Assembly (NCBI GenBank): GCA_025454475.1
Contig: JALOOJ010000064.1
Coordinates: forward strand, 1 to 41,730
From: Anaerolineae bacterium
GTDB taxonomy: Bacteria > Chloroflexota > Anaerolineae > B4-G1 > SLSP01
DNA length: 41,730 bases
Direction: 5' to 3'
The notes under the pieces were generated by a model. It saw only the letters and a list, made by a program, of their open reading frames with translations. It was not told the origin of the DNA and made no database searches. Below, in pieces: positions 21,912 to 40,308 of the stretch; within the stretch, counting starts at the first letter, position 1; each line of letters begins with the position of its first letter. The translations under genes were made by a program, and so were the position numbers.

Positions 21912-22145
21912 ATGGTCCAGACAGCATTCCTAGTGGCCTTGGTGTCGGCAGGCGTCGTGGTCGCTCTGCAGGGGTATCTGGTGATCCGCGGTAAGCGGAG
22001 GCCCTTCGTGACGTACCCTGAGCGAAAGCTGCTGGAGGCTCTGCCGCTGAAAGCAGAGGCGCAGAAGCTGCAAGCATTAGGGCGGCTGCGCGTGGTCTAT
22101 GGTATCTTTCTCGCCGTCGTCGGGCTGTGGGGGCTCGCAGCGTGA
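21912..22145 (+). CDS. Small two-helix membrane protein
   Basis: A 77-residue protein, not recognised. An N-terminal helix (FLVALVSAGVVVALQGYLVI) is followed by a basic, polar middle (RGKRRPFVTYPERK and LKAEAQKLQAL) and a C-terminal helix (YGIFLAVVGLWGLAA), so both ends may face the same side. It starts 6 bases after the MFS stop and ends about 20 bases before the next MFS start, which argues it is a real cotranscribed gene. A role as accessory subunit of one of the transporters is inference. Confidence 0.55.
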   Translation: MVQTAFLVALVSAGVVVALQGYLVIRGKRRPFVTYPERKLLEALPLKAEAQKLQALGRLRVVYGIFLAVVGLWGLAA

Positions 22146-22167
22146 CCCGCGCACAGGGAGTTGGGCC

Positions 22168-23343
22168 TTGGTAGCGACTGCGGCCCACCTGCGACGCGGT
22201 CCGCAGCCTCTTGCGCTCGCTCGCGCGTTCTATGCGTGCTACTACGGCGCCAGCGCGTGCCTGATGCCATTCCTGGCTGTGCACTTCAGTGAGCTGGGGT
22301 TCAGCGGCGGCCAGATTGGGGTGCTTCGCGGCATCGCTCCGGTCGTCACGCTCCTTGCGGCCCCGCTCTGGAGCGGGCTCGCCGACATCACGCGGCGCCA
22401 CAGACTGCTGTGGCTCCTGGCGATCGCCGGCACATGGGCCGCGGCTCTGGCCTTGGCATCGGCGTCCTCGTATGTCGTGCTCATTGCGATCGTAGTCGCG
22501 CACGCGTTCTCTGGCGCGCCTGTGATACCGCTGGCCGACAGCACGGTCATCGGCCTGCTGGGAGCTCGTACCGATCTGTATGGCGCCCAGCGGTTGTGGG
22601 GCGCTGTCGGGTGGGGACTGTCCGGGCTTGTGATCGGGTTTGTGACTGAGCGCTTCGGCCTCAGATGGTCTTTTGTGGGCTACCTGCTGCTGATGGCGTC
22701 CGGGGGCCTCTTGGTTGCGGCGCTCCCGAAGCCCACCCTGACGCTAAGAGTTCGGGGCAACTACGGTGAGGACGTACGAAGGTTGCTGTCGAATCCGGGG
22801 TGGCTGGCATTCCTTGCATCGAGCCTGTTGGGCGGACTCTATCTCACCACCGAGATGAACTTCCTGATGCTCTACATGGCATCACTGGGTGCGGGCGAGT
22901 CGTTGATGGGCATTGCGTTGGTGATCAGCACGCTCGGTGAGCTGCCCATTTGGGCCCTGGCGCCCTACCTGCTGCGAAGGCTAGGCCCTCGGGGTCTGCT
23001 CGCAGTGGCGCTGCTCTCAGGTAGCATCCAAGGCCTGGCGTTCTCGCTCGCGACGACGCCCTGGGTGATTCTGCCGATCCAGCTCCTTCACGGCCTCGCC
23101 TTCTCTGCGGCGTGGGCCGCCGGGGTTGCGTACGTGGCTCGCACTGCGCCGAAGGGCACGCAGGCAACCGCGCAGGGCCTTTTCAGCGGGATCATGATGG
23201 GACTGGCGGCAGCCATCGGAGCCCTTATAGGTGGCCAGCTCTTTGACCGGGTGGGGGGCGCGATGACCTTTCGCCTCGCGGCGTTGATGCCACTTGCGGC
23301 GCTCGCGCTCCTCTGGCTAGGGACACGCCGACGCTTGGGGTAA
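22168..23343 (+). CDS. MFS transporter (MFS_1-like)
   Basis: A 391-residue carrier. I chose TTG at 22168, seven bases after a GGGAG site; the longer frame runs back into the neighbour and lacks a ribosome site. About 12 helices are visible. The first half has ARAFYACYYGASACLMPF then PLWSGLADITRRHRLLW, typical of LacY/nucleoside or phenylpropionate transporters (MFS_1_like). The late part RTAPKGTQATAQGLFSGI is also typical. It lies directly upstream of beta-mannosidase (41 bases), suggesting uptake of a sugar or small glycoside in the same unit. The substrate is inference. Confidence 0.8.
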   Translation: MVATAAHLRRGPQPLALARAFYACYYGASACLMPFLAVHFSELGFSGGQIGVLRGIAPVVTLLAAPLWSGLADITRRHRLLWLLAIAGTWAAALALASASSYVVLIAIVVAHAFSGAPVIPLADSTVIGLLGARTDLYGAQRLWGAVGWGLSGLVIGFVTERFGLRWSFVGYLLLMASGGLLVAALPKPTLTLRVRGNYGEDVRRLLSNPGWLAFLASSLLGGLYLTTEMNFLMLYMASLGAGESLMGIALVISTLGELPIWALAPYLLRRLGPRGLLAVALLSGSIQGLAFSLATTPWVILPIQLLHGLAFSAAWAAGVAYVARTAPKGTQATAQGLFSGIMMGLAAAIGALIGGQLFDRVGGAMTFRLAALMPLAALALLWLGTRRRLG

Positions 23344-23384
23344 CCGATCGAGGGCGCTGACATGACGCCAATGGAGGACATGCG

Positions 23385-25889
23385 ATGACCGGCATCTTGT
23401 CTTTGAATGGCATCTGGGAGCTGCGCGATGAGGTGCTCGGAGCATCCATCGACCAGGCTGATCGGGTGGCACGCGAAGCTGATGGTTGGATCCCCCAGCC
23501 GGTCCCGGGCGACATCCACCAAGGCCTCGAGACGGCTGGCCGCATCAAGGCGCCCCTCCTGGGTCTCAACAGCTTCGACTGTGTGTGGACCGAGCACCGG
23601 TCGTGGTGGTTCCGGCGCCGATTCGACGTTGAGCCGACGTGGCTTGATGCCGATGCCGTGGAACTGGTCATGCAAGGGCTGGATGCCAACGCCGAGGTTT
23701 TCCTTAACGGAACACACATCGGCAGCCACCCAACGGCCTTCCGCCCTTTTTGCCTCGACGTGAGGCAGTGGCTGCGGCCCACCGACAATGTGTTGCTGGT
23801 GCGCCTGACGAGTGGGGTCGAGGCTGTCTCGGAGGCCGACACGTACCACTGCAGTGGCATCCGAGCCAGCACCGAAGCCGCCAACGGGCGTCCGGAGCGC
23901 GGCGATCCCCGCAGGATCTACGCCCGCAAGCCCCAGTTCTCCTGGGGCTGGGACTGGAGCCCGAGGTTGGCGACGACCGCGATTGGAGGCGATGTGACCC
24001 TGAGCGCCCTGCACGACGCCTGCATCCGCGACGTCATAGTCGAGCCGTTAAGGCATAGCGACGAGGTGTTGGTCACTGTCTCCGTGGACCTGCTTCACGA
24101 TTTCGCTTCAGACGAAGGCGTTGTGAATGTCTCGCTTGTCGATGAGACGGGAACGGTTCACCGGGCGGCGACACGAGCCTTCCTCCGGTCGGGTCTCACC
24201 TACGTCGAGGTGCGCGTCCAGGTACCCGACCCCAAACTGTGGTGGCCCAATGGACTGGGCGATCAGCATCGCTATCGGGTTCACACTGCGCTAACGACGA
24301 AGGGTCGCACAATCGCGCATCCGGAGTTCCTGGTTGGGCTGCGGTATGTCGAGTTGGAGGCGCTGGATGACTTCGCCTTCGTCATCAATGGGCTCAGGGT
24401 CTACGCCAAGGGCGCCAACTGGGTCCCAACGGATGCCGTGTATGCACGAACGACCGATGATGTGTACGAACGACTGGTACGTGAGGCGCGTGAGGCGAAC
24501 TTCAACATGCTGCGCGTCTGGGGAGGGGGGCTCTACGAGCGCGACGCGTTCTACGAGGCGTGCGATCGCTATGGCATTATGCTGTGGCACGACTTTATGT
24601 TCGGATGCGCGCCCTATCCCGATGACTTGCCTGCCTTCCGCGAAGAGGTGCGGCGAGAGGCCGACTACCAGACCCGTCGGCTGCGAAACCATGCCAGCAT
24701 TGTGCTCTGGTGCGGCAACAACGAGAACACGTGGGGGTTTGTTGACTGGTGGCACGAGCAGACACGCGGAGGCGCGGCCATCTACAACTACGTGCTGCCC
24801 GAGATCGTGCATCACAACTGCCCCGGCATCCCATACTGGACCAGCTCTCCTTACGGTGGCGAACGCCCGAACGATCCAGATGTAGGCGACCGACACCATT
24901 GGGATCTGATGATGAACCCTGAGATGGCGAAGCGGATCGCGCCGGAGGAGTATGACGCGTGTGATGCTCTGTTCGTGTCGGAGTTCGGGTATGTGGGTGC
25001 TCCCACCAAGGAAACCGTGCTGACGTACCTGGATGGTGCGCCCTTCGACCGTGAAGGCGCCGTATGGCAACATCACACGAACACCTTCGAAAAGCACACA
25101 GTCGATGAGGGGATCCGCAAGCACTATGTAGACCCGGAGACACTTTCACCCGATGACTACTTGCTCTACAGCGGCCTGGTTCAGGGGATGATGTACAGCT
25201 ACGCTCTGGATTCGATGCGATATAGGGCGAACTGTCGAGGAAGCCTGTTCTGGATGTTCGGCGACTGTTGGGGCGAGGTCGGGTGGACGATCGTGGATGG
25301 TTTCCGACGGCGCAAGATCTCCTGGTACTTCGTGAAACGGGCATATGCGCCGATTCGCCTGATCCTGAGGCCTCAGGGTACCGATGGGATTGGCATAGTC
25401 GTGGCGAACGATGCTCCTACTGCCTTCGCGGCGGACATTGAGGTTGGGTACGTCACGCTCGATGGCGCGCAGCGCGACGCTCGCATCGTGACTGTGGCAG
25501 CCGAACCTCTGCGCAGGACCGAGGTCGTCACGATCGACAGGAACGGGCACGATCCGCGCCAGGGTCTGTGGTATGCACGTGCAGTCAGTAGGGACGATGT
25601 GCCCACAGGCATCTTCCGTGCATGTGATCGCGGCCTGCTCGGTGGTCCCGCCGCCGACCTTCGGGCCGATATCGTGGACCGTGGGGCAGGCTGGCTGAAG
25701 GCGCGCGTATCGTCTAACGTCTATGCGCACGCCGTTTTCATCGACTTGCCTGCGCAGGCTGTGCCCAGTGATGCCTACTTCGATCTCCTGCCCGGAGAGG
25801 CCCGTGAGATCGTGATCTGGTCGGAGTCCCCGTTGGCACCAGAGCAGATCAGGGTTCGGTACGAGAGATCGCACCGGCCCGCCCCGTAG
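23385..25889 (+). CDS. Beta-mannosidase, GH2
   Basis: An 834-residue glycoside hydrolase that removes terminal beta-mannose from mannosides; retaining mechanism, cytoplasmic because no signal peptide is seen. An N-terminal jelly-roll (GIWELRDE) and the W-rich sheet LWWPNGLG lead to a TIM barrel with KGANWVPTDA and LRVWGGGLYE. The acid/base is E447 in WCGNNENTW and the nucleophile E533 in FVSEFGYV. The length fits the mannosidase branch. The ATG at 23385 follows GGAGG. Upstream is an MFS carrier, downstream a glycosidase with its own promoter and a sugar ABC importer, which fits oligosaccharide use inside the cell. Confidence 0.9.
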   Translation: MTGILSLNGIWELRDEVLGASIDQADRVAREADGWIPQPVPGDIHQGLETAGRIKAPLLGLNSFDCVWTEHRSWWFRRRFDVEPTWLDADAVELVMQGLDANAEVFLNGTHIGSHPTAFRPFCLDVRQWLRPTDNVLLVRLTSGVEAVSEADTYHCSGIRASTEAANGRPERGDPRRIYARKPQFSWGWDWSPRLATTAIGGDVTLSALHDACIRDVIVEPLRHSDEVLVTVSVDLLHDFASDEGVVNVSLVDETGTVHRAATRAFLRSGLTYVEVRVQVPDPKLWWPNGLGDQHRYRVHTALTTKGRTIAHPEFLVGLRYVELEALDDFAFVINGLRVYAKGANWVPTDAVYARTTDDVYERLVREAREANFNMLRVWGGGLYERDAFYEACDRYGIMLWHDFMFGCAPYPDDLPAFREEVRREADYQTRRLRNHASIVLWCGNNENTWGFVDWWHEQTRGGAAIYNYVLPEIVHHNCPGIPYWTSSPYGGERPNDPDVGDRHHWDLMMNPEMAKRIAPEEYDACDALFVSEFGYVGAPTKETVLTYLDGAPFDREGAVWQHHTNTFEKHTVDEGIRKHYVDPETLSPDDYLLYSGLVQGMMYSYALDSMRYRANCRGSLFWMFGDCWGEVGWTIVDGFRRRKISWYFVKRAYAPIRLILRPQGTDGIGIVVANDAPTAFAADIEVGYVTLDGAQRDARIVTVAAEPLRRTEVVTIDRNGHDPRQGLWYARAVSRDDVPTGIFRACDRGLLGGPAADLRADIVDRGAGWLKARVSSNVYAHAVFIDLPAQAVPSDAYFDLLPGEAREIVIWSESPLAPEQIRVRYERSHRPAP

Positions 25890-25935
25890 TCTCCCGAGAC
25901 TGGTCCCGTGCCGGCGGAATCCAGTCGTTCGATAC

Positions 25936-25964
25936 TTGCGCACTATGTTGGTTGGGTCTAAGAT
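25936..25964 (+). promoter_or_regulatory. Candidate promoter of the GH63-like gene and ABC operon
   Basis: TTGCGC (25936-25941) and TAAGAT (25959-25964) with a 17-base spacer precede the glycosidase start at 26020, giving a leader of about 50 bases with a GGAAGGAG site. Confidence 0.5.
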
Positions 25965-26019
25965 GAACACGTGATTTGAGTGCAAGGGGCCGACCACGTG
26001 GCGGAAGGAGCGTGCGCCG

Positions 26020-28785
26020 ATGGGGCAGAACAGCGCGTTTGAAGCTCTTCGAGGGTCGCACGACCTTAGGCTCCCGGCTTGGGGACCCTACACCAAGCGC
26101 TACATCGGTGTCAGCCATATCCCTGACATCAGCACCGGATTGCGGTTCGATCTGAGCGTCTTCCCCGGACTGTACCGACGAGCCCCCTTTGTGCCCAACG
26201 TGCTCTGGGAATCGGGATACCATCCCTGGGAAGCTGCATCGGACCTTTCCTACTATCGGCATCGACACGAGGTCATCTGGAAGGACCAGGTCTATGCCGA
26301 CATCGACTACTACCGCCCGGCAGAATCGAGCCCTGCCAACCAGATGCTGATCCGTGCGCAATGCGTGAATGCCACCGACGCGCCGCAGAATCTGGTCTTG
26401 CACTGGATGGCCTCGATCCATCTGCCAACCGAGGGTACACCGAAGCGCAGTCCGTTGATTCCAGCGCGGGTCGCGCTGCCCTCTGGGAGTATGTGGGTGG
26501 AGGGCACGGAGTATGCGGTGCTATCGCTTGGCCACGATTCCCATCGGTCGAACCTGTCCTATGACGGCCATCTGCGAGGCGAGGCGGGCGTCAGCGGGTT
26601 CGTGAACGGCCAGGGGCTGGGAAATGGCTTCGGCCTGAGCGAGGGCGATGCCGTGGTCTACCGCGTGTCAGTGTCGCGGCCCATTGCGGATGCACTCCTC
26701 GTGCTGCGCTACCGGCTGCCCGACCGGGCCGAGGTCAAGCTCAGTTTCCCAGGGCTCACGAGTCGGATCATCCGGCTGCGCGGCACCGGCGATGTGGCGA
26801 TCCGTGAAGTGTCTCTGGACCGCGCCCTGTTCGGCGAGGTCATCGTGACCATCGCGCTATCAGAGCACGGGGTGCCGCTCGAGATTGATGGGTTCGCCCT
26901 GGTGCCGCGCCGATCGCTTGATGATCTGCGGTTCGAGGTGGCGACCCCGGTCTACGCGCCGAAGCGGCTGCCGGGCCCGCGACACGATACGTTGCTGCTG
27001 TTGTACGAAGGCATACCTAACGCTTTCGGCCTGGCCTGGGGCGCGCAGGATGGCGTCGCGATCCCGTTCCAGGTCCGTGACATCTACTGCGATGACCTAG
27101 ATACCACGCTGAAGTACACTGTGCACAACCACACCCAGCTTGCGCTGTTTGGGCCGGGCGAAGGACACTTCACGAATGTCTTTCAGCGTCCGATCTTCCT
27201 GGCACCGCATTCCGTACGCGTGATCATGGGCTCGGTCTACTGCGGGGAGCCGAAGGACGTGTACGCGCAGTGTGCCGCTTTCGATCCTACCGCGACTGAG
27301 TGGAATGAGGTGCATGCGGCGGCACGTCGTCGCGCTGCCTTCCACGAGGAGAGTGAACAGAGCGCCTCGAACCCGGCAGGTAAGCCCTACCTGGGTGGAC
27401 AGGAGCGCATGGCTGCCACTCTGCTCACCAACATCGTGTACCCAGTGCGGACCCGCGGGACGTGGATTCGCCACTACACCCCAGGGCGATGGTGGGATAG
27501 CCTGTACACCTGGGATGCCGGCTTCATAGGACTTGGGTTGGCGGAACTGGACCTCGACCGAGCGGTCGACACGCTGAATGCCTACGTCACGGAGCCGGAT
27601 ACTGAGGATGCAGCCTTCATACATCACGGAAGCCCGGTGCCAACGCAGTTCTACGTCTTCCTTGACCTATGGAACCGTACCCAGTCGCGGCCGCTGCTTG
27701 AGTACTTCTACCCGCGGCTTCGTCAGTACCACCGGTTCCTCGCCGGTAGGATGGGGAGTTCGACAACTCGGAACCTGAGATCGGGGCTCATCCGGACCTG
27801 GGACTATTTCTACAACTCCGGAGGGTGGGATGACTACCCACCACAGGTTCATGTCCATCGCTATGGGATGGAGCACAGCGTCACGCCGGTCATCAGCACC
27901 GCGCAGGTGATCCGCACGGCGAAGATTCTGAGGATGGCGGCGCTGGCGCTGGGCGAGGAGACGACTGAGTACGACGATGACATCTCCCTGCTGTCCGGTG
28001 CCCTACAGTCCAACGCATGGGATGACGAATCCGGCTATTTTGGCTATGTTGAGCACGACGAGCAGGGCCTTCCGTACGCCATCCTACGCACCGCCGATGG
28101 CGCAAACTACAACATGGGTATGGACGGGGCATCCCCTCTCGTGGCTGCAATCTGCACGCCAGATCAGGAAAAACGCCTGGTCGATGCACTGATGTCTGAG
28201 GACCACATGTGGACCCCGTGCGGGCTTAGCACGGTTGACCGTTCAGCGCCGTACTACGCTGTGGACGGCTATTGGAATGGGGCCGTCTGGATGCCACATC
28301 AGTGGCTCTTTTGGAAGGCGCTGCTGGATCTCGGACGGGCCGATGAGGCGCACCGCATCGCCTCGACGGCACTTGGTCTCTGGCAGCGAGAGGTGGATCT
28401 CTCGTACAACTGCTTCGAGCATTTCACGGTCGAGACTGGACGGGGCGCGGGCTGGCACGCCTTCGGCGGGCTGTCCTCCCCGGTTCTGTGTTGGTTTGGC
28501 GCCTATCACCGGCCTGGACGCTTGACGGTGGGGCTCGACACCTGGATCGAGTCGCTGGAGGTCACCGACGGGAAGGACGGACTGCGGGCGCGTCTTCGCC
28601 TCATGGGGCCGCCGCGTCACGAACCCGCGATCATCGTGACGTTGGTCCCGGGCGCGTATGCCGCAACCTGGAACGGTTCGCCAGTCGCGACGCACGAACG
28701 ATACGCAGGGACACTCGAGATCGTCCTTCCGCGCGGACAGAGGGTGGGTGACCTCGTGGTGCGCCCCACACGTCTCGCAAGCTAG
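26020..28785 (+). CDS. GH63-like (alpha/alpha)6 glycoside hydrolase
   Basis: A 921-residue enzyme with no signal peptide. An N-terminal beta-sandwich (about 1-450) is followed by an (alpha/alpha)6 barrel (450-870) of GH63/GH37 type, clan GH-G, which includes processing glucosidases and mannosylglycerate hydrolases. Visible motifs are RWWDSLYTWDAG (D493, D499), GGWDDYPP (D604/D605, candidate general acid) and CFEHFTVETG (E800 and E805, candidate base). The aromatic-rich end has DGYWNGAVWMPHQWLFW. The sugar cannot be named; the neighbouring beta-mannosidase and ABC importer suggest an oligosaccharide taken up whole. The ATG at 26020 follows GGAAGGAG. Confidence 0.75.
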   Translation: MGQNSAFEALRGSHDLRLPAWGPYTKRYIGVSHIPDISTGLRFDLSVFPGLYRRAPFVPNVLWESGYHPWEAASDLSYYRHRHEVIWKDQVYADIDYYRPAESSPANQMLIRAQCVNATDAPQNLVLHWMASIHLPTEGTPKRSPLIPARVALPSGSMWVEGTEYAVLSLGHDSHRSNLSYDGHLRGEAGVSGFVNGQGLGNGFGLSEGDAVVYRVSVSRPIADALLVLRYRLPDRAEVKLSFPGLTSRIIRLRGTGDVAIREVSLDRALFGEVIVTIALSEHGVPLEIDGFALVPRRSLDDLRFEVATPVYAPKRLPGPRHDTLLLLYEGIPNAFGLAWGAQDGVAIPFQVRDIYCDDLDTTLKYTVHNHTQLALFGPGEGHFTNVFQRPIFLAPHSVRVIMGSVYCGEPKDVYAQCAAFDPTATEWNEVHAAARRRAAFHEESEQSASNPAGKPYLGGQERMAATLLTNIVYPVRTRGTWIRHYTPGRWWDSLYTWDAGFIGLGLAELDLDRAVDTLNAYVTEPDTEDAAFIHHGSPVPTQFYVFLDLWNRTQSRPLLEYFYPRLRQYHRFLAGRMGSSTTRNLRSGLIRTWDYFYNSGGWDDYPPQVHVHRYGMEHSVTPVISTAQVIRTAKILRMAALALGEETTEYDDDISLLSGALQSNAWDDESGYFGYVEHDEQGLPYAILRTADGANYNMGMDGASPLVAAICTPDQEKRLVDALMSEDHMWTPCGLSTVDRSAPYYAVDGYWNGAVWMPHQWLFWKALLDLGRADEAHRIASTALGLWQREVDLSYNCFEHFTVETGRGAGWHAFGGLSSPVLCWFGAYHRPGRLTVGLDTWIESLEVTDGKDGLRARLRLMGPPRHEPAIIVTLVPGAYAATWNGSPVATHERYAGTLEIVLPRGQRVGDLVVRPTRLAS

Positions 28786-28875
28786 GCCAGAGAGCGAGGT
28801 GCTGCGGGCGTGGCGCCCTGTATCACTTGTCGGACCTCGGGGCAAGACATGACTGGGCACCAAGGAGGTGCAACC

Positions 28876-30468
28876 GTGAAGAGAGTGATCGGCGGCCTGT
28901 TGGCGATCGTAGGTGGTCTGCTGGCGCTTATCTGTGCGCCCTTTCTGCTCCACGCGTTGGTGAACGCCATCTTCGTGTTGGCTCTTGGACAGCCAGTTCC
29001 GGGGTGGTGGTGGCGGCTGATCGCGCCCATTCAGAACATCGTCGCCCTTCCGATCCTTGCCTTTGCCTTCGTCATCAAGATGGGGTCGAAGCTCTCCTTG
29101 ATCATCCCTCTCATCGTCCTCTTGATCGTGCAGGCCATCGGAGTGGTCCTGCTACTCGTGGGGCTGAAGATGCTTCGCAACTCGCGAAGCCGTCGGGACG
29201 CAGCGCTTCGCAATGTCGCTGCATTCCTGCTGCCGGTAGTCTTGTTGGTGGGATGCGCGAAGGCCACACCGGAGGCAGTCGCTGTCGAAGCACCCCCCGG
29301 CAAGGTTCTCGTCCAGTGGTCGACCTGGGGCGGGAGCGAGGCGACAGCGTTACACGAGCAGATAGTCGCCGACTTTGAGGCCAAGCATCCTGGCATCAAG
29401 GTGCAGCTGGTAACGGTTGCCGGTTTCACCGACTACCTGACAAAGCTGCAGACACTGTTGGCTGCGGGCACGCCACCCGACGTGATTACCTTGGGGAATG
29501 AGTGGTTTCCGGCTTTCCTGTCGAAGGGGGCTTTCCAGGACCTCTCGCCCTTTGTGGCGGGGGATCCTGAGGTGGATCTGGATGCCTACATCCCTCTCAC
29601 AATCGACGTGCTGACGCGCGGAGGCAAGCTCTATGCCCTGCCCAAGGACTTCAGCGTCGATGCGTTGTACTACAACCTGGACGCTTTTGACGAGGCTGGG
29701 ATCCCGTATCCGGACGAGACGTGGACGTGGGCGACGCTGTTGGACGCGGCGCAGAAGCTCACCACACGCGATGCCAGTGGAAGGGTAACCCGCTACGGGT
29801 GGTCCGACTCAGGGCTCAACATGTGGCCGTGGATCTGGCAGAACGGTGGTCTCCTCTTCGACAATGAGCGCGAACCTACGCTCGCGACGCTAACGGATCC
29901 GGCGGTCGTTGAGGCGGCGCAGTTCTACTATGATCTGTCGCTCAAGCACAAGGTCGCCCCGAACGTTGCGGAGCTGCAGCAGGTCTCACAGCGGGACCTG
30001 TTCATTGGTGGACGCGTGGCGATGATCTATGACAACGTCAGTGCTCAGGTGCCCTTCGCCAAGATCGACGCCTTCCGCTGGGACGTCGCCGTGTTGGCGA
30101 AGGGTAAGCAGCGGGCGACGCCGATGTCCGAAAACGGGTATGCGATGTCCGCAAGTGCGCAGTACCCCGAGGAGGCTTGGGCGTTGATCAAGTACCTATC
30201 CAGTCCGGAGGCGGTCCGCGTCATCATTGGGGCGGGGGGGGCGTTGCCCTGTCTCGAGGCGCTCGCCGGTTCCGATGAATATGACGTTCGACCTGCGTTC
30301 CTGCAGTCGGTGGACTTCTCGAAGCCCAGTTTCTCGCCTTCGCAGATGTTGGACATGTATGCCGTCTTCCGCAATGAGCAGCCCCTGATGGCGATGGGGC
30401 TCAAGTCCGTGCCTGACACGCTCGCGTCGATGAACGACCAGTTCAACGTGATGCTGGGGGCGAAATAG
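28876..30468 (+). CDS. Sugar ABC transporter substrate-binding protein with N-terminal membrane-helix extension
   Basis: A 530-residue protein, much longer than a normal sugar-binding lipoprotein (about 410-430). GTG 28876 lies after AAGGAGGTG. Residues 1-100 form about three membrane helices (4-38, 49-70, 73-98), then a basic stretch (RNSRSRRD). A lipobox-like NVAAFLLPVVLLVGC with C127 precedes a family-1 solute-binding domain (VQWSTWGGSEA to the end, with the typical DALYYNLDAFDEAGI segment). The binding domain could also be translated alone from ATG 29170, as a lipoprotein with a normal signal peptide. The two permeases follow at once, with no ATPase gene. Confidence 0.8.
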   Translation: MKRVIGGLLAIVGGLLALICAPFLLHALVNAIFVLALGQPVPGWWWRLIAPIQNIVALPILAFAFVIKMGSKLSLIIPLIVLLIVQAIGVVLLLVGLKMLRNSRSRRDAALRNVAAFLLPVVLLVGCAKATPEAVAVEAPPGKVLVQWSTWGGSEATALHEQIVADFEAKHPGIKVQLVTVAGFTDYLTKLQTLLAAGTPPDVITLGNEWFPAFLSKGAFQDLSPFVAGDPEVDLDAYIPLTIDVLTRGGKLYALPKDFSVDALYYNLDAFDEAGIPYPDETWTWATLLDAAQKLTTRDASGRVTRYGWSDSGLNMWPWIWQNGGLLFDNEREPTLATLTDPAVVEAAQFYYDLSLKHKVAPNVAELQQVSQRDLFIGGRVAMIYDNVSAQVPFAKIDAFRWDVAVLAKGKQRATPMSENGYAMSASAQYPEEAWALIKYLSSPEAVRVIIGAGGALPCLEALAGSDEYDVRPAFLQSVDFSKPSFSPSQMLDMYAVFRNEQPLMAMGLKSVPDTLASMNDQFNVMLGAK

Positions 30469-30481
30469 AGGGCGCCCTACC

Positions 30482-31378
30482 GTGACCCGCGCAGCGGCCG
30501 CGGGCTCGCGCCATCGATGGCGCCAGCCTGCGTGGGCTCTGCTCTTCCTGGCGCCTAGCCTTGTCGGGTTCCTGGCCTTCACCTTGGGCCCGATTCTGGC
30601 CTCGCTGGTGCTCAGTGTGACCCGCTGGGACCTGATCGGTCGCCCGCAATTCGTGGGGCCGGAGAACTACCGCGCAGCGTTCTCCGACCCGATCCTCGGA
30701 CGTGTGATGCGCAACACTGTTATCTACAGTGGCGGCACAGTACCGCTGCTGGTGATCGTGTCGCTGGCTCTAGCCCTGGCGCTCAACCAGTCTATCCGCG
30801 GTCGTACCTTCTTTCGGGTGCTCTTCTTCATGCCTGTGGTGTCGTCCACTGTCGCGGTGGCGATGGTCTGGCGCTGGATCTACTCGCCGTTCGGGCCGAT
30901 CAACGCTATCCTGGTTGGCTTTGGGCTGCCGGTCGTAGGCTGGCTCACAACGACGACCTGGGCGCTGCCTGCAGTTATCCTGATGAGCGTCTGGCAGAGC
31001 ATGGGCTATAGCTTGGTGATCTTCCTCGCCGGTCTCCAATCCATCCCACAGCACCTATACGACGCCGCAGCAGTGGATGGTGCCAACGGGTGGCTGCGTT
31101 TTCGGCATATTACAGTGCCTCTGCTCTCGCCCACGACGTTCTTTGTCGTGGTCATGGCGGTGATCAGCACCTTCCAGGTATTTGGCCAGGTCTATATGCT
31201 CACCGGTGGCGGCCCCGCGTTTGCGACAAGCACCATCGTCTACTATGTCTACGAACAGGCGTTTCTGGCGCTGCGCATGGGCTATGCCAGTGCGCTGGCG
31301 TGGTTGCTGTTTGCCGCGATTTTCGGGTTGACGGTGCTGCAGTTGCGGTTCCAACGGCGGTGGGTGACGTATGACTAG
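30482..31378 (+). CDS. Sugar ABC transporter permease (MalF/UgpA type)
   Basis: A 298-residue inner-membrane permease with six helices. GTG 30482 lies 14 bases after the binding-protein stop. The cytoplasmic EAA loop is LYDAAAVDGANGWLRFRHI (about 192-210), which contacts the ATPase. It overlaps the next permease by 8 bases. It pairs with the MalG-type permease and the upstream lipoprotein to form one importer. No ATPase is encoded here, so a shared MsmK/UgpC-like protein from elsewhere is needed. Confidence 0.9.
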   Translation: MTRAAAAGSRHRWRQPAWALLFLAPSLVGFLAFTLGPILASLVLSVTRWDLIGRPQFVGPENYRAAFSDPILGRVMRNTVIYSGGTVPLLVIVSLALALALNQSIRGRTFFRVLFFMPVVSSTVAVAMVWRWIYSPFGPINAILVGFGLPVVGWLTTTTWALPAVILMSVWQSMGYSLVIFLAGLQSIPQHLYDAAAVDGANGWLRFRHITVPLLSPTTFFVVVMAVISTFQVFGQVYMLTGGGPAFATSTIVYYVYEQAFLALRMGYASALAWLLFAAIFGLTVLQLRFQRRWVTYD

Positions 31379-32207
31379 TCGCCCTCGGCGCCGCGACACG
31401 GCGACGCGGTTAGCGCTCTATGCCGCGTTGGCTGCCGCTGCGGCGGCTGCAGTATCGCCCTTTGCGTGGATGGTGAGCACATCGCTCCGGACGCTGGTCG
31501 AGGTCATCGAGGCTCCGTTTGGGCTCCCGCTTCCGCCTCAGTGGGACAACTACCCGGCTGTCTTCGAAGCGATCCCTTTCGCTCGCGCGTACGTCAACAC
31601 GGTGGCGGTCACGTCCGCGCGGACGGTGGGCGTGCTGGTCATATCATCAATGGCTGCCTATGCCTTCTCTCGGCTGCGCTTTCCGGGACGCGACGCGCTC
31701 TTTGCGCTCTACCTGGCGACGATGATGGTGCCCTCACAGGTAACGATGATCCCCACGTTCGCTCTGATGCGACTCCTGGACTGGCGCGACACTTACCAGG
31801 CGCTAATCGTTCCGCACCTGTTCAGCGCCTTCGGCACATTTCTGCTGCGCCAGTTTATGCTCACGCTGCCGGTGAGCCTGGAGGAGGCTGCAGTGATGGA
31901 CGGCGCCTCACCTTGGGCGATCTTCCGGCGCATCATCGTGCCGCTCAGCAAGCCTGCACTGGCGACGCTGGCGGTCTTCACATTCCTGGGCGCGTGGAAT
32001 GACTTCATGTGGCCTCTGATCATCACCGACTCACCGCAGTTGGCGGTGCTTAGCGTCGCGCTCTCGTATTTGCAGCAGCTCAGCCACACCGATTGGCCCC
32101 TGTTGATGGCCGGCGCAGTAATGGCGCTGGGTCCGGTGCTGGCGGTCTACGTCGCCGCGCAGCGCACGTTCGTGGCGGGCATCGCGCTGACGGGGATCAA
32201 GGGATAG
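31371..32207 (+). CDS. Sugar ABC transporter permease (MalG/UgpE type)
   Basis: A 278-residue permease starting at ATG 31371 inside the end of the previous gene. Six helices; the EAA loop is LEEAAVMDGASPWAIFRR (about 169-186). The FLGAWNDFMWPLIIT stretch is typical of MalG-type subunits. It is the last gene of the importer operon and is convergent with the broken enolase-superfamily gene at 32304; the 96 bases between show no obvious terminator. Confidence 0.9.
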   Translation: MTSRPRRRDTATRLALYAALAAAAAAAVSPFAWMVSTSLRTLVEVIEAPFGLPLPPQWDNYPAVFEAIPFARAYVNTVAVTSARTVGVLVISSMAAYAFSRLRFPGRDALFALYLATMMVPSQVTMIPTFALMRLLDWRDTYQALIVPHLFSAFGTFLLRQFMLTLPVSLEEAAVMDGASPWAIFRRIIVPLSKPALATLAVFTFLGAWNDFMWPLIITDSPQLAVLSVALSYLQQLSHTDWPLLMAGAVMALGPVLAVYVAAQRTFVAGIALTGIKG

Positions 32208-37055: not shown

Positions 37056-37517
37056 TCAATCCAGGCGGAAGCTCATGGCCGCGGCGTTGACCAGCGCCTC
37101 CGGTAGGCCTTCTACGTAGGCGCGGATCTCATCTCGCACGCGCCGATAGTGCGCCAACGCCTCCTCCTCGGTCGATGCCGCGGATGCCAGCTCCGGCGGG
37201 TCGTCGAAACCGTGGTGCACGACGACGGCCCGGCCGGGGAACACCGGGCAGTTTTCTCTTGCGTTGTCACACACGGTGACGACGTAGTCGAATTGCAGCT
37301 CCAGGAGGTCGGCGACGGCCTTGCTGTGGTGACCGGTGATATCGACGCCGGCCTCTGCCATGACCTGAATCGCCCGGGGGTCGACGCGCTTGGCGATGAC
37401 TCCGGCAGACCACACATCGATGCGATCGCCTCTCAGGGCGCGCGTCCACCCTTCAGCCATCTGGCTCCGGCACGAGTTGCCGGTGCAGAGGAACAGAACA
37501 CGGTACTTCTCCGGCAC
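37056..37517 (-). CDS. arsC: Arsenate reductase, LMW-phosphatase type
   Basis: A 153-residue thioredoxin-coupled arsenate reductase. The P-loop CTGNSCRS carries C11 and C16, and the redox pair C83 and C90 lies in VCDNARENCPVFPG, the same spacing as in the Gram-positive ArsC. The GTG at 37517 follows AAAGGAGG. It reduces As(V) to As(III) for export; no arsR, arsB or acr3 is nearby, so the rest is elsewhere. The leader contains a hairpin, and two tandem palindromes sit further upstream. Confidence 0.85.
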   Translation of the reverse strand: MPEKYRVLFLCTGNSCRSQMAEGWTRALRGDRIDVWSAGVIAKRVDPRAIQVMAEAGVDITGHHSKAVADLLELQFDYVVTVCDNARENCPVFPGRAVVVHHGFDDPPELASAASTEEEALAHYRRVRDEIRAYVEGLPEALVNAAAMSFRLD

Positions 37518-37890: not shown

Positions 37891-40242
37891 ATGACATCGA
37901 TCGACATGACTGGCCTGTGGCGCTTCCAGCCCGACCCTGCAGGAACCGGCCTGATGCGAGGCTACGTGCGTATGGACTACGACGATCACCGGTGGCGCGA
38001 GGTCTCTGTACCGATAGACTTCGAGACGTGCCATCCAGGACTGGACACCTATGAAGGGGCCGGCTGGTTCCGACGCTGGGTGGACGTGCCTCTCGATTGG
38101 GCGGGCCAGCGCATCGTGCTGCGCTTTGAGGGTGTCAATGCTCACGCACGCGTGTGGCTGAATGGGCACGAGGTCGGCGCCTGGGAAGATCCTTTCCTGC
38201 CCTATGAGATCAATGTGACGGGCACCGTTGTGCCGGGTCAGCGCAACCTGGTCGTCGCGCGAATCGACAACGAGCGCCGCCGCGGCGACGTCCCGGGGAT
38301 GCAGCGCGGCTGGCGCAACTATGGAGGCATTCTGCGCGAGGTGACTCTATACGCCACCGACCTCTGTTACCTGGTGCGGCAGACTGTGGTTGCGGAACCC
38401 GTGGAGGGTGGGGGACGTCTCGAGATCCAAGCCTATGTACGTAATTCGCGCCGGGTGCCTGTCGACGCCCGCATCGACGTTGTCGTCAGCCATCCTCAGG
38501 ATCCGGATGCGTTCGATGCTGTACAATTGGTCAGCACAGGTGTGTCTATCCTGGAGGGCGATGAGGCGGCACTAACCGTCTCCGGTCACGTTGCCGGCGT
38601 GACGCCGTGGTCCCCGGACCGACCCTCGTTGTACACGGCATCCGTGACGCTCAGGGTTGTGAGCGAGGGGAGCAATGTCATAGATCGCCGTGAGCTGCAG
38701 ATCGGCTTCCGCTCCATCGAGGCCCGCGATGGGCGGGTGCTCCTCAATGGGGCGCCCATCTTCCTGACCGGCTTCAACCGGCACGAGGATTCGCCTGAGA
38801 CGGCCATGTGCCCCGATCCGGCGCTCACACGACGCGACCTTGGGGCGATGAAAGCAGCCGGGGCGAACTCCGTTCGCCTGTGCCACTATCCCCATCACCC
38901 GGCGGAGCTGGACCTCTGCGACGAGCTCGGGCTGCTGGCGATGGTCGAGATACCTCTTTATTGGTGGGATGGCCTGGCCGAGGGACACGATGCGGCTGCT
39001 GCGAAGCTGGTCGCAGCCCGGCGCCAGCTCGAAACATTGATCCGGCGTGACCGCTGCCATCCGTCGGTCGCGTTCTGGTCGGTGAGCAACGAGACGCATG
39101 AAGAGCGCGAGGAGGTCGCTTCCGGGAACCGGGAACTCGTGCGCCTGGCGAAGCGGCTTGACCCGACGAGACTTGCCGTGCACGTCAGTGACCACTGGCA
39201 ACAGCACCCCAACTTCGAGGCTGATGATGTCATCTGCGTCAACGGGTACCCGAGCGTCGGGCCACTGGCGGGCGGTGGTGATCCAGATTACGATCTGGCG
39301 GATTCCACGGCGTTCTGGCGTGAGGGACTGGCGGCACTCCACGAGCAGAATCCGGACAAGCCGATCCTGGTGACCGAGTTCGGCTATACGTCGCTGCACG
39401 GCGTCACGGACAACGCTTTCAGTGGTGATACGCATGCCGCGGTGCTTGCTTCCGAGTTCGCAGGTATGGACGCGGCGTACGTGTGTGGCGCCATCGTGTG
39501 GTGTTGGGCCGACCACGCGTGGCCGCCCGCGACGTTTACGTTCTGCGGACACCTGGCAGTGAGTCCCTACGGTGTGGTCACGCGCGACCGGCGGCGGAAG
39601 ACCCCCTATTGGGCCGCCCGTCGGCTGTTCAGGGCAAGGCAGGGATTGGCTGATCCCCCCAAGGGCAACGAGCGTCCCCTCCCGACGCCGTCGGGGTACG
39701 AGGTCACAATGGTGCGCCCCAGTATGGAGGGGATCGCCGACGTGGCGTTCCCGGCGGGCTACAGCATCAGAGCGATGCGCCCCGATGAAGGTGGGCTGTG
39801 GACCGACATCTGGCGGGATGCGGAGGAGTTCGCCAGCATCGAGTCGACGCTCTTTGAGAACGAGTTCGGCGATGATCTCGAGGCGTTGCGCTGGCGAGGC
39901 TACATCGTACAGGATGACCATGGGGTCGGGGTCGCCACGATCACGTCGTGGTACAACCGAACGCACAAGGGACAGGACTACGGTCAGATCCACTGGGTCG
40001 CGACGCGGCGGTCGCACTGGGGTCGTGGGCTGGGTAAGGCGATGCTGTCCCACGCTCTACGCCAGATGGCCCAGTGGCATAGCAGGGCGTACCTTGGGAC
40101 ACAGACCAAACGTCTGGCGGCGATAAAACTGTACCTGGACTTCGGTTTCGTGCCGGACCTCGACGATCAGTGGGCGCGCGAGGCGTGGGCAGAGGTCCGG
40201 ACCGCGCTCGACCATCCCGCGCTGCGAGCCCTTGGGCTATAG
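37891..40242 (+). CDS. GH2 beta-galactosidase/glucuronidase-like enzyme fused to a GNAT acetyltransferase
   Basis: A 783-residue protein; the ATG at 37891 follows GAGGGGAG. Residues 1 to about 590 form a GH2 enzyme (MTGLWRFQ; jelly-roll FEGVNAHARVWLNGHEVG; TIM barrel) with acid/base E401 in VSNETHEER and nucleophile E496 in VTEFGYTS. Residues 607-783 form a whole GNAT domain: YSIRAMRPDEGG, WVATRRSHWGRGLGKAML (acetyl-CoA loop) and YLGTQTKRLAAIKLYLDFGF. The GNAT part starts with its own Met at 39709, with GAGG 5 bases upstream, so it may also be made separately. It could hydrolyse a glycoside and acetylate the product or an amine; this is inference. There is no signal peptide. Confidence 0.85.
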   Translation: MTSIDMTGLWRFQPDPAGTGLMRGYVRMDYDDHRWREVSVPIDFETCHPGLDTYEGAGWFRRWVDVPLDWAGQRIVLRFEGVNAHARVWLNGHEVGAWEDPFLPYEINVTGTVVPGQRNLVVARIDNERRRGDVPGMQRGWRNYGGILREVTLYATDLCYLVRQTVVAEPVEGGGRLEIQAYVRNSRRVPVDARIDVVVSHPQDPDAFDAVQLVSTGVSILEGDEAALTVSGHVAGVTPWSPDRPSLYTASVTLRVVSEGSNVIDRRELQIGFRSIEARDGRVLLNGAPIFLTGFNRHEDSPETAMCPDPALTRRDLGAMKAAGANSVRLCHYPHHPAELDLCDELGLLAMVEIPLYWWDGLAEGHDAAAAKLVAARRQLETLIRRDRCHPSVAFWSVSNETHEEREEVASGNRELVRLAKRLDPTRLAVHVSDHWQQHPNFEADDVICVNGYPSVGPLAGGGDPDYDLADSTAFWREGLAALHEQNPDKPILVTEFGYTSLHGVTDNAFSGDTHAAVLASEFAGMDAAYVCGAIVWCWADHAWPPATFTFCGHLAVSPYGVVTRDRRRKTPYWAARRLFRARQGLADPPKGNERPLPTPSGYEVTMVRPSMEGIADVAFPAGYSIRAMRPDEGGLWTDIWRDAEEFASIESTLFENEFGDDLEALRWRGYIVQDDHGVGVATITSWYNRTHKGQDYGQIHWVATRRSHWGRGLGKAMLSHALRQMAQWHSRAYLGTQTKRLAAIKLYLDFGFVPDLDDQWAREAWAEVRTALDHPALRALGL

Positions 40243-40246
40243 TTGC

Positions 40247-40308
40247 CTCACGCAGAGGCGCAAGGGACACGAAGGAAGCCATGCACGAGCTCTGCGTCTC
40301 TGCGTGAG
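40247..40308. repeat. Inverted repeat of the CTCACGCAGAG type
   Basis: CTCACGCAGAG (40247-40257) and its perfect reverse complement (40298-40308) flank about 40 bases; CTCTGCGT is tandemly doubled in the right arm. It lies between the GH2-GNAT and UroD-family genes. Similar CTCTGCGT-rich dispersed repeats are known in many environmental genomes. It can form a long stem and might act as a processing or terminator element. Confidence 0.6.

Follow-up and report, generated by a model that had tools for sequence, protein, structure and literature searches.

Glycosidases that share a single chain with a GNAT-type domain have been described for the GH3 and GH84 families. RmNag of Rhizomucor miehei is a bifunctional GH3 beta-N-acetylglucosaminidase-GNAT protein, the structure of which has been solved (PDB 4ZM6) and the glucosamine N-acetyltransferase activity of which has been measured (PMC4680927). 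The O-GlcNAcases carry a C-terminal GNAT-like domain behind a GH84 glycosidase, and the acetyltransferase role of this domain is controversial (PMC4680927). For GH2, a 2025 survey of subfamilies provides structure-function rules (i.e. an NxK motif for hexuronidases and SD/Glu for glucosaminidases), lists GH2_11 and GH2_21 as doing without NxK, detected no secreted GH2 in Chloroflexota, and makes no mention of GNAT or acetyltransferases (PMC12243196). No paper on a GH2-GNAT fusion was found in the literature searched, subscription papers and preprints being outside its scope. The first-pass annotation of the locus presented here stated that no enzyme of this kind had been described, which holds for GH2 as far as was searched, but is too broad in view of the GH3 and GH84 pairings.

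The locus lies in a window of 41,730 nucleotides (the whole stretch of DNA that was analysed), in which an uninterrupted frame of 783 codons and a stop encodes both a GH2 glycosidase and a GNAT acetyltransferase. Its layout is given below; all four Pfam domain matches exceed the curated cut-offs.

37891..40242, + strand: gene of the GH2-GNAT fusion; 783 aa, ATG start and TAG stop.
37912..38355, + strand: GH2 N-terminal sugar-binding (jelly-roll) domain, aa 8-155 (Pfam PF02837, GH2_N, 3.7e-17).
38407..38712, + strand: GH2 immunoglobulin-like domain, aa 173-274 (Pfam PF00703, 4.9e-7).
38719..39612, + strand: GH2 catalytic TIM barrel, aa 277-574 (Pfam PF02836, 9.1e-35; model Z 37-39 to GH2 beta-glucuronidases, residues 1-586).
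39643..39699, + strand: variable linker, aa 585-603 (~19 aa; 7-53% identity to relatives; mean pLDDT 67 for residues 591-600).
39700..40239, + strand: GNAT acetyltransferase domain, aa 604-783 (Pfam PF00583; model of the GNAT alone pLDDT 86.6, best match MshD, Z 18.1).

Both parts are complete, as the GH2 part comprises all three domains (residues 1-584) and the GNAT part spans residues 604-783, with the Acetyltransf_1 (PF00583) match at residues 655-753 (1.3e-13); the open frame and the Pfam domains thereby bear out the earlier proposal that a whole glycosidase and a whole acetyltransferase are encoded in one frame. The same annotation had described the halves as joined with almost no linker, and the linker is indeed short, but variable. 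The start at 37891 is supported by a preceding GGAG and by relatives that begin at the equivalent place; an extension of the frame further upstream, to 37639, lacks conservation. No signal peptide was seen in the fusion protein, the GH2 fold of which begins at residue ~4. That no secreted GH2 proteins were detected in the Chloroflexota (PMC12243196) fits a cytoplasmic location, in which the enzyme would have access to acetyl-CoA.

The GH2 half displays the three-domain fold, the Glu nucleophile and the NE acid/base of GH2 (CAZy clan GH-A), and the following sites were located by alignment.

39088..39093, + strand: Asn400-Glu401, the NE motif with the acid/base (Glu401 at 39091-39093, in WSVSNE); invariant in the family alignment A1 and aligned with the NE of PDB GH2 enzymes.
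39376..39378, + strand: Glu496, the catalytic nucleophile (in VTEFG); invariant in A1 and aligned with the PDB GH2 nucleophile.
39562..39573, + strand: Ser558-Pro-Tyr-Gly561, at the place of the hexuronidase NxK-G motif; S558, P559 and G561 are invariant and the segment aligns with NRKG and NNKG of PDB hexuronidases.

Alignment A1 consists of 12 sequences; the two catalytic glutamates, reported as intact at first pass, are indeed unchanged throughout it, and His332 and Trp537 are invariant alongside them. The model of the whole protein (mean pLDDT 84.7) superposes on GH2 beta-glucuronidase structures with an rmsd of mostly 2.1-2.6 A. However, beta-glucuronidase, although the top match in both NCBIfam and the PDB, was demoted as an assignment: the group I hexuronidase NxK motif (loop 8, which binds the C6 carboxylate) is absent, with SP[YF]G in every member that covers the site, and the fusion scores far under the cut-off of every NCBIfam GH2 equivalog. 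Since GH2_11 and GH2_21 do without NxK, hexuronidase activity is not strictly excluded by the missing motif. Exo-beta-glucosaminidase, though a neat fit to a GNAT that acetylates GlcN, was demoted as well, because the GH2_16 signature (SD in place of NE, and Glu in place of the loop-2 His) is absent while NE and His332 are invariant. No sign of 2-acetamido sugar recognition was detected in the GH2 half. By the rules of the survey (PMC12243196), the motifs suggest a beta-hexopyranosidase for neutral sugars, either galactosidase-like or of another kind.

Within the GNAT half, two sites bear on catalysis.

40018..40035, + strand: acetyl-CoA (P-loop-like) signature W-G-R-G-L-G, aa 710-715.
40132..40134, + strand: Tyr748, invariant in the 12-sequence alignment.

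From general knowledge of the GNAT family, we take Tyr748 to be the likely general acid. The acetyl-CoA loop had been regarded as intact, which is correct with respect to Gly713 (invariant), but needs qualification at the first position of the Q/R-x-x-G-x-G/A signature, which is W in the closest relatives of the window and Q in more distant ones. As the fold search with the whole model was filled by GH2 structures, the GNAT part was folded and searched alone. Its best matches are C-terminal halves of tandem GNATs, with MshD first (1ozp; 162 aligned, 2.8 A) and MAB_4324 second (7q3a; Z 17.3), ahead of the C. acetobutylicum glucosamine N-acetyltransferase (5kf2; 159 aligned, 3.1 A, Z 14.5) and, lower, the GNAT of RmNag (4zm6, residues 678-855; Z 13.1, 156 aligned, 3.2 A). 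MshD-type tandem GNATs act on a substrate that carries glucosamine. The resemblance of the model to glucosamine enzymes, together with the RmNag precedent, makes an amino sugar a suggestive first guess for the GNAT substrate; it is suggestive only, since the protein/peptide N-acetyltransferases RimI, Ard1 and Naa50 also match the model at Z 13-14, i.e. near the glucosamine enzymes. The GNAT part has no match in NCBIfam.

The surroundings of the gene were also inspected. Upstream of the fusion the window contains a heparinase-like gene and a cluster of genes for CAZymes and sugar ABC transporters. Positions 22099-32207 hold an MFS transporter, a GH2 mannosidase-like gene, an MGH1/GH63-like hydrolase, an ABC solute-binding protein and permeases, and a low-molecular-weight phosphotyrosine phosphatase-like (arsenate-reductase-type) gene lies just upstream of the fusion (37056-37517, - strand). 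In genus g9 of the same family, the fusion starts directly after a gene for a xylose-isomerase-like TIM-barrel protein. The downstream genes (URO-D-like and Nif3-like) are conserved in the genus of the window, and say little as a guide to the substrate. Between the fusion stop and the next gene, positions 40247-40308 form a hairpin with a 16-bp stem (CTCACGCAGAG...CTCTGCGTGAG; folding z-score -3.2), the core of which finds only a handful of less exact matches in the rest of the genome. Related GNATs are also joined to other enzymes, namely to Gfo/Idh/MocA-like proteins at the N-terminus in L069 and at the C-terminus in L071 and L163. L070/L071 belong among these oxidoreductase-like GNAT fusions, and L163 also matches the GH109 C-terminal domain. 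In L164 (1733-3418), from a Poribacteria MAG that also carries a GH2-GNAT fusion, the GNAT is situated at the N-terminus of a uroporphyrinogen-decarboxylase-family (URO-D) protein. Free-standing GNAT orthologues in Poribacteria (L147-L166) are near-ubiquitous and often adjoin a gene for a SpoIIE-domain protein or a PhyH dioxygenase; no adjoining GH2 genes were found in the roughly one dozen Poribacteria genomes examined, which argues that coupling to GH2 is confined to the fusion and is not shared by the GNAT family at large.

We tentatively propose, with a little less than even confidence, that the product of the gene is a true bifunctional enzyme of the cytoplasm, conserved among its carriers, which would couple deglycosylation with N-acetylation of predicted substrates. 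The GH2 site would remove a neutral beta-hexose, and the GNAT would use acetyl-CoA to acetylate an amine on that same glycan, the acceptor most likely being an amino sugar such as GlcN, either in the aglycone or in the released product. Joining the halves would couple the two reactions, as in RmNag, albeit in reverse. Complete domains, conserved residues and a single fused lineage support the two-step enzyme at the level of sequence. Further points in its favour are the sugar-gene context (the xylose-isomerase-like gene of g9 and the CAZyme cluster of the window), the GNAT-Gfo/Idh/MocA fusions and the RmNag precedent. A rather unlikely alternative, albeit one to be weighed, is that the fusion is real while its GNAT acts on a non-sugar substrate, be it a protein or peptide amine, the precursor of a thiol, or an amino acid, the link to GH2 serving co-expression or regulation by acetyl-CoA instead of a common substrate. 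The RimI, Ard1 and Naa50 matches fit this alternative, as do the PDB profile matches of the GNAT part, which are weak and mostly to N-terminal acetyltransferases, and the non-sugar genes that adjoin the free Poribacteria homologues; yet the C-terminal halves of MshD-type tandem GNATs, with their glucosamine-bearing substrate, match best by ~3-4 Z units, and relatives of the GNAT are joined to sugar dehydrogenase-like proteins.

It is improbable that only one of the two halves is catalytic and that the GNAT (or the GH2) acts as a binding or structural module, as has been proposed for animal O-GlcNAcase and its GNAT-like domain: while the W in place of Q/R in the closest relatives and the controversy over the O-GlcNAcase domain (PMC4680927) are compatible with such a role, Glu401, Glu496, Gly713 and Tyr748 are invariant across the family. 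Furthermore, identity to relatives is 43-79% for the GNAT domain as against 42-75% for the GH2_N and TIM domains, so that conservation is similar in the two parts and both halves look selected.

It had also been suggested that one message may give rise to both the fusion and a free acetyltransferase, by way of an internal start.

39709..39711, + strand: Met607, the earlier proposed internal start; a conserved protein residue without a conserved ribosome-binding site.

The suggestion drew on GAGGT at 39700-39704, four bases before the ATG, and is now considered very improbable. The GAGGT simply represents Glu-Val codons, and the Shine-Dalgarno-like score at this position ranges from 0 to 6 matched bases across 12 relatives, so that the site is not conserved; the distribution is broadly like that of 127 other internal Met codons of the same genes, where scores of 0 (40), 3 (49), 4 (30), 5 (7) and 7 (1) were obtained. 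In free-standing GNATs of this family the equivalent Met is itself internal, ~6 residues past their own start (MKNYSVRM-IRE..., MKNYSVRMIRENMENIP), indicating that the Met is kept for reasons of the protein itself. In L015 it is replaced by Leu.

To assess the distribution of the fusion, short peptide patterns were run against 84,980 species genomes, and 99 related genomes were searched. The fusion was found in at least 15 genomes (each counted once, that of the window included), mostly Chloroflexota, and its full-length relatives display 47-70% identity in the 12 aligned. Carriers occur in the genus of the window (L008/G003, L009/G002, L010/G004 and L018/G001), in genus g9 of its family (L011/G021, L012/G017, L017/G012 and G019), in the same order (L015/G043) and in the same class (G369), with a further carrier in L016/G389; three more are MAGs labelled Poribacteria (L013/G387), Brocadiaceae (L014/G388) and 'uncultured bacterium' (L019/G390). 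In genera g1 and g9 of the window's family, the fusion is present in 9/9 genomes searched; in G001, G012 and G019, a contig end or an N gap interrupts the gene. Conversely, a draw of 300 other genomes across the phylum yielded G369 alone, indicating that the fusion is a minority trait. In L015 (194-2452) the GNAT ends ~30 residues early and may be truncated or frameshifted. None of the matched fused frames contains a stop. The fusion thus recurs in relatives without stop or indel at the junction, the opposite of the outcome that the first-pass annotation had named as speaking against it. That two separate ancestral genes were joined by a sequencing or assembly error in the window contig, part of a draft genome of 369 contigs, is ruled out by the same fused frame and boundary in 15 assemblies at 47-70% identity and by the clades that the fused halves form. 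The fusion is real and inherited.

Phylogenetic analysis of the 15 fused and 43 other GNATs grouped all the fused GNATs in a single clade (support 100/99) that branches within the free-standing GNATs, of which those of Poribacteria are nearest. The fused GH2 halves likewise form one clade (92/87), the sister of which is the closest unfused GH2 (L020, from a Planctomycetota MAG), a protein that ends right at the junction; no GNAT of this kind was detected in the L020 genome, an empty search that by itself shows little. The branching of the window sequence with L008, L009, L010, L011, L012, L017 and L018 broadly agrees between the two halves. These sequence data fit a single old fusion followed by vertical descent and some transfer. 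The carriers outside Chloroflexota rest on MAGs, and mis-binning of the contigs from Poribacteria and Brocadiaceae is conceivable. A profile-matching GNAT is present in 75/85 Poribacteria genomes and in 22/294 genomes from the phylum to which the Brocadiaceae MAG belongs.

With GH3 and GH84 pairings already known, the GH2 version in 15 genomes indicates that the pairing of glycosidase and GNAT arose again, in bacteria and with a different glycosidase. It delimits a GH2 clade that lacks the signatures of hexuronidases and glucosaminidases, as well as a GNAT clade, and the two may be tested together; if both steps act on one glycan, the fusion itself would be a clue to the substrate of each half. 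The GNAT-Gfo/Idh/MocA-like fusions broaden such a test. It is possible, though we would not call it likely, that this is the first GH2 in which glycoside cleavage is coupled, in the bacterial cytoplasm, to the N-acetylation of that same amino-sugar glycan with acetyl-CoA, its GNAT belonging to a family that has joined three or more types of partner (GH2, Gfo/Idh/MocA-like and URO-D-like proteins) in several phyla.

Among the known systems, RmNag resembles the window fusion in having an N-terminal glycosidase and a C-terminal GNAT in one chain, but it is fungal, belongs to GH3 and has two tandem GNATs, whereas the fusion combines a GH2 with a single GNAT; RmNag acetylates and then cuts the 2-acetamido sugar, while the opposite order is proposed here. 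The O-GlcNAcases also place a GNAT-fold domain after a glycosidase, but this is a GH84 enzyme that acts on modified proteins, and the window fusion keeps the acetyl-CoA loop and the likely catalytic Tyr. With the GH2 enzymes of group I (beta-glucuronidase/LacZ) it shares the three-domain fold (~23-28% identity to GUS structures), the NE motif, the nucleophile Glu, and the His and Trp positions, and it differs from them in having SP[YF]G in place of NxK and in its C-terminal GNAT. The C-terminal halves of MshD and of the C. acetobutylicum glucosamine N-acetyltransferase superpose on the window GNAT, N-terminal strand included, although these are tandem proteins as against the single GNAT (~180 aa) of the fusion, and identity is 13-16%. 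Finally, L069, L071, L163 and L164 have a homologous GNAT module joined to other enzyme families, but they fall outside the GH2-fused clade and represent separate fusions, at either end of the partner.
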